A stretch of DNA of 30,169 nt from a virus, in IMG/VR virus record IMGVR_UViG_3300026521_000198, positions 1-30,169 of that record; one strand, given 5' to 3'. Of the stretch, positions 5,813 through 30,169 are shown one piece after another; positions within the stretch are counted from its first letter, which is position 1; each line of letters starts with the position of its first letter. A program made the translations under genes and the position numbers. The notes under the pieces were generated by a model that ran no database searches, was not told where the DNA came from, and worked only from the letters and a program-made list of their open reading frames with translations.

Positions 5813-6061
5813 ATGAAAACAATTAAAATAACAGAATTAGCAAAAAAACTAAATATTAATCATTCTGCCATTTCATTATGGAATAAAAAGAAAAAAATAC
5901 CCGCTGGAAGAATCTTTGAAGTTGCAAAAATTATTAAAGTGAGTCCTATTTCTTTAAATAAAAATAATGATTTGTTATTTAATATGATTAATTCTACTCC
6001 AAAAAAAGACAATATAACAAGAGTACAATCACAAGACAATCACAATACTAAGGTAATTTAA
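5813..6061 (+). CDS. Cro-like helix-turn-helix regulator, 82 aa
   Basis: The first 50 residues form a small HTH of the Cro/YdaS type: ITELAKKLNINHSAISLWNK (residues 6-25), then KKKIPAGRIFEVAKI. The C-terminal 30 residues are polar and probably disordered. It is transcribed away from the repressor across the shared operators and is the first gene of the rightward early operon, so it is expected to favour lytic growth by shutting off the repressor promoter. No good Shine-Dalgarno is seen. The right operator ends only about 10 nt before the ATG, so the mRNA leader must be very short. Confidence 0.85.
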   Translation: MKTIKITELAKKLNINHSAISLWNKKKKIPAGRIFEVAKIIKVSPISLNKNNDLLFNMINSTPKKDNITRVQSQDNHNTKVI

Positions 6062-27130: not shown

Positions 27131-28459
27131 ATGAGTTTAAAAAGTAAAATTTTTGAAAAATTAGATAATGCTGTTGAAAATGCAGATACAAATACAGTTG
27201 ATGGAGTGCAAATATTAGCTTTATGTTCAAGCACTGTTAAAAATTTAAATGAGGGTACAGATTTAGAAGATGATATTTATAATATTGGTATAGCTGGTGA
27301 GTTAGGTTTTGGTGTTGCTACTTGCCCTAATGAACTAATCCCAAGTGGTTGGAGAGGTTTAGAGGGGCATGACAATATTATCAGTCCTAACTATGGTAAT
27401 TATGTAGATGCTAATGGGAGTATATTAGTTTATGTTCCTAAGCATTATTATAAATATGATGGGAATACTTGCCTTATATCTAACAGAGCATTAAGTGGGT
27501 ATGTACTTGATAGAAGTTTTATAAATGCGGGAAAAGAGATAAACGGAGTTTTTGTTTATAAATATGGTGCTAGTAATTCAAATGGTATTTTTGCAAGTAG
27601 AAAATTAAAAGACCCAATTTCAACACATAGCGACCATAATCCAGTTGCAAATATAAATGGTGCAAGTGAAAATAATTATGGAGAGCTTTATCAAGCCGTT
27701 AAAAGTGCTGGAAGTAAATATTATTTAACTTCAATATTTAATTATAGCATGTTAGCAAGATTAGCACTTTCACATGGTTCGGCTTCTTCTACAGCCACAG
27801 CATGTGCATTTACTGATGTTGCTCCAGCAATGCCAAAAGGTTGTTTAGGAAGTGCATTAAGAGATTACAATGACAATTCAGTTGTGTTTACACCAAGTGG
27901 ATACAGTGATTGTGGTTTAACGGGTAGTGGTGAGCCTTTTGCAAAAACAACTCATAATGGTCAAGACTGTGGAATAGCAGATTTAACGGGAAATATGTGG
28001 GAAGTCGCAAGTGGTTTTATTAGAACTGATGACGATGGTTTTTTAGTTTTAAAAGAAAGTGTTGATATTACTAGTATTATTAATGATGGCACAAGTGGTG
28101 GGGCTTATGATGTTTCTCTTTATGATGTTGTAGATATATCAGATGTAGTTAGTGGTAATGATGGTTGGACTTATTTAGGGAATGGTTCAAATGCTGTATT
28201 TGGAATGAGTACGGATAGAGCAAGTACAACTTATAAAAAAACAGCACTTGGTATTGGTAATGATACGGGATATAGCAGTAGTGGAACAACACAGTTTGGA
28301 AATGATGGTTTATATAGATATTTACGAAATGAAATGGCTTGTCTAGTCGGCGGTGGTTGGGGTTACTCTTCTGATGCGGGGGCGTTTGCTGTGAATTTGG
28401 GCGGTAATCGGACTAGCTCGAGTAGCGCTGTGGGTGGTCGTGCCTGTGTTCTTGTATAG
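27131..28459 (+). CDS. DGR-diversified tail tip protein with FGE/C-type-lectin-like domain
   Basis: The 442-aa protein is the target of the retroelement. Its C-terminal part shows the formylglycine-generating-enzyme-like/CLec fold used by DGR targets: HNGQDCGIADLTGNMWEVAS (residues 275-294) and the final VGGGWG...GGRACV strand. The last 41 residues contain the variable repeat (402-437), where up to 11 template AAY codons allow ligand-site residues to vary. N-terminal residues 1-40 have a helical anchor. It follows the tail genes, so it is probably the host-receptor-binding tip. Confidence 0.88.
   Translation: MSLKSKIFEKLDNAVENADTNTVDGVQILALCSSTVKNLNEGTDLEDDIYNIGIAGELGFGVATCPNELIPSGWRGLEGHDNIISPNYGNYVDANGSILVYVPKHYYKYDGNTCLISNRALSGYVLDRSFINAGKEINGVFVYKYGASNSNGIFASRKLKDPISTHSDHNPVANINGASENNYGELYQAVKSAGSKYYLTSIFNYSMLARLALSHGSASSTATACAFTDVAPAMPKGCLGSALRDYNDNSVVFTPSGYSDCGLTGSGEPFAKTTHNGQDCGIADLTGNMWEVASGFIRTDDDGFLVLKESVDITSIINDGTSGGAYDVSLYDVVDISDVVSGNDGWTYLGNGSNAVFGMSTDRASTTYKKTALGIGNDTGYSSSGTTQFGNDGLYRYLRNEMACLVGGGWGYSSDAGAFAVNLGGNRTSSSSAVGGRACVLV
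28334..28441 (+). repeat. DGR variable repeat (VR)
   Basis: The 108-bp VR is the 3' end of the target gene (residues 402-437). It aligns to the TR (28919-29026) with no gaps and 18 mismatches; 16 are at template adenines (14 A to G, one A to C, one A to T). The first 21 and last 12 bp are identical to the TR. The last 12 bp (GTGGGTGGTCGT) contain no adenine and are the likely initiation-of-mutagenic-homing site. Confidence 0.95.
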
Positions 28460-28471
28460 TAACGAACGATA

Positions 28472-28876
28472 GTGAGTGATAAAATGGGTATTCATAGTGA
28501 AGCAATATTAAATCGTAAATATATGGAAATGATTAAGTTATTAAATATATATCTTAATCATTTTCCACGATTTGAAAAATATGCGTTATCAAACAATATA
28601 AGAAATACAGCTTATGAAGTGTATGACTTGATTACCGAAGCCCAAAAAAGATATATCAAAAAAACAACACTTACCAATCTTGATATTACACATCAAAAAC
28701 TTCGTATGCAAATATATCTAGCAAATGAGCTTGGATATTTTGCATTTAAAGATGGAAAAATAAATAATAATATAAGTCCACACAAAAGATTTTTAGCAAT
28801 ATCATCACTAATAGATGAAATAGGTAAAATTATTGGTGCTTGGATAAATAAGCTTAAAAATATAAGTAAATTTTAA
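28472..28876 (+). CDS. avd: DGR accessory variability determinant (Avd-like)
   Basis: A 134-aa helical protein of the Avd four-helix-bundle family that binds the RT and the template RNA. Family-like blocks are LNIYLNHFPRFEKYALSNNI (residues about 24-43), LDITHQKLRMQIYLANELGY, and the closing IGKIIGAWINKLK. Basic surface residues fit RNA binding. The frame begins at GTG 28472; ATG 28484 (MGIHSE) is an alternative start, and neither has a strong ribosome site. It sits between VR and TR, and its stop overlaps the start of the TR-RT frame by no bases (TAAATG). Confidence 0.88.
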   Translation: MSDKMGIHSEAILNRKYMEMIKLLNIYLNHFPRFEKYALSNNIRNTAYEVYDLITEAQKRYIKKTTLTNLDITHQKLRMQIYLANELGYFAFKDGKINNNISPHKRFLAISSLIDEIGKIIGAWINKLKNISKF

Positions 28877-30154
28877 ATGAAACACATAGGGCAACATAAC
28901 AATATGAAAAATGACAGCATGGCTTGTCTAGTCGGCGGTAATTGGAGTAACTCTTCTAATGCAGGGGCTTTTGCTATGAATTTGAACAATAATCGTACTA
29001 ACTCGAATAACAATGTGGGTGGTCGTGACTCTATTTCTAAACTTGAAACAACAAAAGTTGATACTAGGAATACAGGGGTATGTTGTCCTGCTAATAGCGA
29101 AATCAAAAAAAGAAGTCTTTTGAGTAAATCAACTGAAAATCAGACTTCATCAAAATCCAAAAGAATAGGTTTTTTATTTGATAAAACATTTACTATTGAT
29201 AACTTATATCAAGCTTTTTTAACAGCAAGAGCTGGTAAGAGAAATAAAAGAGCTACATTAAAATTTGAAATAAATTTAGGAGCTGAACTTAAAAGTTTGT
29301 ATGATGAATTGCATAATGGAACTTATAAGCCAAGAGCCTATAGTCAGTTTAAAGTATATGAACCAAAAGAGCGAATTATAAATGCACCAGCATTTAGAGA
29401 TTTAGTAGTGCAACATTGTATCTATAAAACTATTTATAATATATTTGACAATAGTTTTATAGATACATCTTATGCTTGTAGAAAGGGAGGAGGTACTCAT
29501 AAAGCTAGTATTTATACACAAAAAGAAATGCGAAAATATAATGGAGATTTATATTATGCAAAACTAGATATACGAAAATTTTTTTATAGTATAGATAGAG
29601 AAATTTTAAAAACACTATTTGAAAAAAAGATTAAAGACAAAAGATTCGTAAATCTTATGTGTGAATTTGCAAAGATGAATGGTGAAAAGGGTATTCCTAT
29701 TGGAAATTTACTATCTCAAATATATTCACTTATATATTTAAATCAATTAGACCACTTTGTAAAAAGAGAATTAAAAATCAAAAGCTATGTTAGATATGTA
29801 GATGATTTTGTTGCTATTGGATTAACATTAGATGAAGCAAAAGAATTTAAAAACAAATGTGAAAAATTTGTGCAAGATAAATTGAATTTAGAGTTATCAC
29901 ATTGGCATATCCAAAAAATTAAAAAGGGAATCAATTTTGTAGGATATAGAACTTGGAAAAATAAAAAATTCGTAAGAAAACATAGTATGTACAAATTTAA
30001 AAAAGCAGTTAAAAAATTTAAAATTGAATCAATAATCTCTCTCATAGGTCATGCAAAAGGTACAAATAGCATTTCTTATTTTAGAGGTCTGTTGATTGAA
30101 TTTCAAATTTTAAATTTATTACCAAAGAGGAGCAAAAAATGGTTAAATATGTAA
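28877..30154 (+). CDS. DGR reverse transcriptase (frame includes TR at its 5' end)
   Basis: This enzyme copies the TR RNA into mutated cDNA for transfer to the VR. The RT domain (from about residue 98) closely follows Bordetella phage RT: YSQFKVYEPKERIINAPAFR, SYACRKGGGTH, first catalytic Asp231 (KLDIRKFF), the DGR-specific GIPIGNLLSQ, YVDD at 307-310, then SHWHIQKIKKGINFVGYRTW. The frame is open from ATG 28877 through the TR. The only in-frame start between TR and RT is TTG 29120 (344 aa), without a clear ribosome site. Either start is possible. Confidence 0.93.
   Translation: MKHIGQHNNMKNDSMACLVGGNWSNSSNAGAFAMNLNNNRTNSNNNVGGRDSISKLETTKVDTRNTGVCCPANSEIKKRSLLSKSTENQTSSKSKRIGFLFDKTFTIDNLYQAFLTARAGKRNKRATLKFEINLGAELKSLYDELHNGTYKPRAYSQFKVYEPKERIINAPAFRDLVVQHCIYKTIYNIFDNSFIDTSYACRKGGGTHKASIYTQKEMRKYNGDLYYAKLDIRKFFYSIDREILKTLFEKKIKDKRFVNLMCEFAKMNGEKGIPIGNLLSQIYSLIYLNQLDHFVKRELKIKSYVRYVDDFVAIGLTLDEAKEFKNKCEKFVQDKLNLELSHWHIQKIKKGINFVGYRTWKNKKFVRKHSMYKFKKAVKKFKIESIISLIGHAKGTNSISYFRGLLIEFQILNLLPKRSKKWLNM
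28919..29026 (+). repeat. DGR template repeat (TR)
   Basis: This 108-bp TR is the template copied with adenine mutagenesis into the VR. It carries 28 adenines, 11 AAT/AAC codons and no in-frame stop, the codon choice typical of a DGR template (mutated AAY never gives a stop). It lies between avd and the RT domain, in the same frame as the RT. It encodes ACLVGGNWSNSSNAGAFAMN in that frame, and ends with the adenine-free GTGGGTGGTCGT. Confidence 0.95.
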
Positions 30155-30169
30155 AATACAATAAGGTTG
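30139..30169 (+). CDS. Start of a gene cut by the right window edge
   Basis: AGAGGAG lies 7 nt before an ATG that overlaps the end of the RT frame, and the frame (MVKYVKYNKV) stays open to the edge. Too little remains to assign a function. It shows that the operon continues after the RT. Confidence 0.55.
   Translation, partial: MVKYVKYNKV

Follow-up and report, generated by a model that had tools for sequence, protein, structure and literature searches.

Diversity-generating retroelements (DGRs) are well known in phages, in which they constitute a major system of directed hypermutation, and their template is treated as a non-coding RNA. The DGR of Bordetella phage BPP-1 (mtd-avd-TR-brt) has in common with the locus described here the gene order, the adenine bias, a Brt-like reverse transcriptase (RT), Avd and a GRNA-loop hairpin after the variable repeat (VR). 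Such hairpins are needed for efficient retrohoming in BPP-1, in which the element was defined (PMC3240598), and the BPP-1 cassette has been reconstituted in a laboratory strain of E. coli (PMC12875486). For phage ACA1, translation of the template repeat (TR) to give the RT an N-terminal extension has been reported (PMC10612066), and structural group 3 of DiGReF, in the part of that source used here, comprises elements in which the TR overlaps the RT (PMC3521204).

The sequence analysed, hereafter the window, is the whole IMG/VR record IMGVR_UViG_3300026521_000198 (30,169 bp). Taken as a whole, the evidence makes it very likely that a probable temperate phage of Campylobacterota carries here a complete DGR, which varies a lectin-like tail-end protein and in which translation of the RT begins upstream of the TR. 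Genes for a repressor, a single-stranded DNA-binding protein, a RecT/Bet-like annealing protein, terminase, portal, major head protein, tail tube and tape-measure protein lie 5′ of the target, a set consistent with a tailed phage of temperate lifestyle. The target sits after the tape-measure gene and is the final gene ahead of avd, TR and RT. The features of the cassette are as follows.

27131..28459, plus strand: target gene, 442 aa, with a C-terminal VR; C-type lectin/FGE-like variable protein (ORF, AF2, Foldseek)
28334..28450, plus strand: VR, by ungapped alignment to the TR; the substitutions that adenine mutagenesis can account for lie at 28355-28428
28462..28477, plus strand: post-VR DNA hairpin ACGAAC-GATA-GTGAGT with a GRNA loop and tandem A.G/G.A in the stem; putative target-recognition element (covariation)
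28472..28876, plus strand: avd, accessory variability determinant (Pfam bAvd, 2.9e-18; phrog_3206 'Avd protein of DGR', 2.2e-20)
28877..30154, plus strand: RT ORF, 425 aa, which takes in the leader, the TR and the spacer in frame; the RT core begins at 29159 (KRIGFLF) (ORF, clade comparison, AF2)
28889..28899, plus strand: 5′ arm of the TR-flanking helix, GGGCAACATAA, within the RT leader codons G-Q-H (covariation with 29078-29088)
28904..28906, plus strand: ATG, second possible RT start, 15 nt downstream of where the 5′ arm begins (conserved in 40/44 elements scanned)
28919..29035, plus strand: TR, by ungapped alignment to the VR; in frame with the RT and read in the VR frame
29027..29148, plus strand: spacer (Sp) RNA, a diverged relative of Rfam RT-14 (full-length match below the gathering score)
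29078..29088, plus strand: 3′ arm of the TR-flanking helix, GTATGTTGTCC (91.2% of cells paired)

A sequence-only reading of this DNA had proposed a complete DGR, and all the parts (VR, TR, avd, a DGR-type RT, the post-VR hairpin and a VR-bearing target) were found. Its gapless alignment of 108 bp of VR (28334-28441) and TR (28919-29026), in which TR adenines account for 16 of the 18 mismatches (28 adenines available), was reproduced exactly, and no mismatch in this core lies at a VR adenine. When the alignment is extended to 117 bp, 18 of 21 mismatches fall at TR adenines (30 available) and again none at a VR adenine (p = 1.2e-10, hypergeometric). Because the TR 'GACT' against the VR 'GC' is invariant in every relative examined, the mismatches from 28443 onward probably fall beyond the 3′ boundary of the transferred stretch. 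The alignment, together with the comparison of relatives below, shows the pairing of TR and VR typical of a DGR, with substitutions restricted to TR adenines. No further VR was found in a search of the 30,169-nt window.

The accessory protein Avd of DGRs is encoded in the window, and its match to NCBIfam DivGenRetAVD (4.1e-19, 68.8 bits) lies below the cut-off of 80. The RT matches Pfam RVT_1 (4.4e-16) and phrog_1423 (6.8e-116), and it carries the GxxxSQ and YxDD motifs that had been pointed out earlier, as GNLLSQ at 29702-29719 and YVDD at 29795-29806. Among solved structures it groups with DGR RTs, with BPP-1 Brt as the best match (3e-64, 220 bits) and a group II intron RT as the runner-up for the RT profile (96 bits); the RT tree discussed below took in no retron or group II rows. 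That the repeats are an ordinary duplication of a tail gene, or that the RT belongs with those of retrons or group II introns, has a negligible probability: the RT domain does match TIGR04416 group_II_RT_mat (3.6e-33), as RTs generally do, but with 115 bits against a cut-off of 300, and a mismatch bias of p = 1e-10, Brt as the best solved relative and the presence of avd, TR, hairpin and RNA together argue against both. The RT gene also contains a perfect 18-bp inverted repeat at 29417-29467, with a loop of 15 nt, which degrades in relatives and is probably a chance feature. Elsewhere, a single contig of an Aliarcobacter MAG (G001) encodes two distinct DGR-type RTs, separated by 27 kb (C6:119195-120103 and C6:146351-147331), the first of which has an in-frame stop by the match.

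To the extent that public contigs permit, the comparison of VRs among close relatives suggested earlier favours activity, with VR variation concentrated at TR adenines while the TR is conserved. The closest comparison is with L003, a phage element whose RT is 98% identical to that of the window: the TRs differ at 1/107 positions and the VRs at 23/107, of which 19 fall at TR adenines and one mirrors the single TR change. Across 16 elements, the VR departs from its own TR at 231/426 adenine sites and at 12/1286 other sites, and 38 of 43 variable non-adenine TR columns are mirrored by every VR to its own TR. As read from the sequences, this pattern is the mark left by repeated copying of the TR into the VR. 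It is quite improbable that the DGR is decayed or dormant and its VR pattern a relic. Identical VRs in L011-L013, three contigs of one relative, would suit such a relic, and the VR of L010 shows several non-adenine differences, but the RT motifs, Avd, hairpin and RNA are intact, the VRs of L003 and the window have been rewritten independently beside near-identical TRs, and changes in the TR are mirrored in the VR. The element is a complete and probably functional DGR, and we infer from these comparisons that it is active at present in the phage of IMGVR_UViG_3300026521_000198.

In the phage of L003, a second target gene (L115:3097-4128, IMGVR_UViG_2616644881) lies at a distance of more than 10 kb from the RT and has a VR and a post-VR hairpin of its own. 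Over 27670-30169, DNA identity to L003 rises from 74% at 27670-28019 to 96% at 28157-30169. Because identity jumps in this way while the upstream tail genes cannot be aligned, the cassette seems to be a module that moves between phages.

The target protein gave no match in a Pfam search. Its AF2 model (mean pLDDT 90) has TaqVP (5vf4) as the best Foldseek match (E 3.5e-17), followed by Mtd variants and PvdO/FGE, which places the VR at the 3′ end of a gene with a predicted C-type-lectin-like fold, as in DGRs. From the TaqVP/Mtd-like fold and the location after the tape-measure gene, the target may be the receptor-binding tip, and its variation could permit host-range switching. A VR-like target gene is also present at L116:4599-6317 (IMGVR_UViG_3300019762_000006), on a contig of 90 kb that yielded no RT relative.

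The proposed Campylobacterota host agrees with the relatives of the RT and cassette, which occur in Campylobacterota MAGs, and with the target homologues among phage records, in which every named host is Campylobacter or Helicobacter. This assignment is supported indirectly, through such relatives. In 397 Campylobacteria genomes searched, a strong DGR RT match was found in 7, and the portal protein gave only matches of 26% identity, with no close match for a host genus.

Structured elements accompany both repeats. The stem of the GRNA-loop hairpin downstream of the VR covaries in relatives around the tandem A.G/G.A mismatches, which distinguish it from the perfect stem of BPP-1, and the GRNA loop is kept; the same hairpin also follows the distant second target in the phage of L003. 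Around the TR, the two arms of the flanking helix, picked by anchors independent of complementarity, show a covariation of 0.577 (0.229 when shuffled), and both sides change in 71 cells, compared with 20 in shuffles; slid versions of the helix collapse. Further covarying stems occur within the spacer, and a structured spacer RNA downstream of the TR, as in DGRs, is thus found. Single-sequence folding of leader-TR-Sp was uninformative (z 0.35), and covariation was used instead. RT-14 is the only Rfam model that matches the window, with 30.4 bits against the gathering score of 48.1, and it matches three relatives at the same place; Phage_DGR, the BPP-1-type spacer RNA, does not match the window.

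What the sequence-only reading had missed is that the RT ORF begins at 28877, directly after the avd stop, so that TR and spacer RNA lie in frame within it, in the order leader, TR, spacer and core at 29159. In an RT tree, 17 fused elements form one branch (SH-aLRT 98), with hosts, where known, among Sulfurovum, Sulfurovaceae, Helicobacteraceae and Campylobacterales MAGs. The 17 share ancestry and are not 17 independent events; in every one of them, the distance from the TR end to the core is a multiple of 3 across six lengths, no stop interrupts the spacer (0.7/17 open expected from shuffled spacers), and the site at which relatives start the RT is a non-start codon (Ser, Thr or Pro). Outside the clade, 25 of 27 elements have ATG, GTG or TTG at the RT start, and lengths occur in all three phases. 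One row inside the fused branch, L015, encodes its RT separately, with an ATG present in the spacer, and is read as a reversal. Because all 17 have lost the RT's own start, with a spacer that is a multiple of 3 and free of stops, the RT almost certainly starts upstream of the TR.

The TR would consequently be translated, and its overlap with the RT may carry a regulatory meaning. It is unlikely, by comparison, that this is an ordinary DGR whose RT starts at an internal spacer codon (e.g. TTG 29120), with the open frame as an untranslated by-product. A TTG near -30 does occur in many clade members, ATG or GTG is found within the spacer of some, and the TR would be open in the VR frame anyway, as the mirror of a coding region; but the ATG or GTG codons have no shared place, no internal start is shared, TTG 29120 is missing in L006-L008 and L036, and the retained frame and the Ser, Thr or Pro at the former start site argue against this explanation. 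The spacer codon-position rates (0.20/0.27/0.35), which are not strongly coding-like, would also suit an internal start. With these rates, selection on the spacer peptide was not convincing, and the peptide itself may therefore do nothing. AF2 predicts RT residues 1-94 to be disordered (pLDDT <50) and the core to be mostly above 70, and the tail of the upstream-started RT looks tolerated rather than a domain.

Of 25 relatives whose RT is separate, 19 have a frame that is open through the spacer, compared with 5.5 expected from shuffles in which kinship is ignored. In ten elements (L018, L037, L038, L042, L050, L052, L057, L063, L064 and L069), an ORF that begins at the ATG before the TR reads through both TR and spacer, in frame with the VR, and terminates in an ATGA-type overlap with the start of the RT. 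RTs beginning with ATGAAR automatically give TGA in that frame, so the overlap by itself is weak evidence, and only openness up to it counts. These frames hint that translation through the TR may be general in this family of DGRs. We tentatively suggest, as an idea with somewhat less than even chances, that in this family the RNA of TR and spacer is itself translated, as an ORF linked to expression of the RT. Ribosome transit through the template would then couple or compete with its use for reverse transcription and give a self-limiting cis control of hypermutation. A complete DGR with 11/11 mismatches at TR adenines was also seen in a Helicobacter ganmani prophage (BK070120.1; L128:5110-5223 and 5893-6006), where it is annotated merely as hypothetical proteins; its RT has its own ATG, and the upstream frame is closed.

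In the mechanism that we propose, the avd-TR-Sp-RT transcript would be mRNA and template at once. The spacer and the helix bracketing the TR would fold into an RNA bound by RT-Avd, which would copy the TR with errors at adenines. The resulting cDNA would replace the 3′ end of the target gene, within a region marked by the constant GCCT (TR: GACT) boundary and the GRNA hairpin, and would vary the lectin-like tail-end protein. With the RT start at 28877 or 28904, upstream of the TR, ribosomes would cross the template, and the RT would carry a tail of approximately 94 residues from leader, TR and Sp. The lineage, documented here in Campylobacterota and their phages, is seemingly obliged to translate through its template, which makes the relation of translation to mutagenic reverse transcription directly testable.

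Relative to known systems, pairing comparable to that around the TR can be read upstream and downstream of the BPP-1 TR, but brt has a separate start downstream of the spacer, whereas the RT here is in frame with the TR. The BPP-1 spacer RNA is Rfam Phage_DGR, and the spacer model built here (R1) found no match in BPP-1. The spacers of the window, L008, L004 and L042 align over the full RT-14 model (RF02921), although at 30-35 bits, under the 48.1 cut-off. The target is TaqVP-like rather than Mtd-like overall; it shares the fold of the Thermus aquaticus DGR target TaqVP at 17-19% identity but follows phage tail genes. The DGRs of Pseudoalteromonas phage ACA1 and Vibrio VP58.5 share with the sequence here a TR that lies in frame as an N-terminal extension of the RT, with a probable start upstream; because their RTs form a distant group, the TR-RT fusion probably arose at least twice, independently. 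In the part of the DiGReF source used here, group 3 is listed as an annotation overlap, without a test of frame retention or start-codon loss (PMC3521204). A TR that extends the RT has precedents in DiGReF group 3 and ACA1, which makes the present element a variant and not a new kind; what is new is the clade-wide loss of the start codon, the retention of the frame and the position of an RNA helix inside RT codons.
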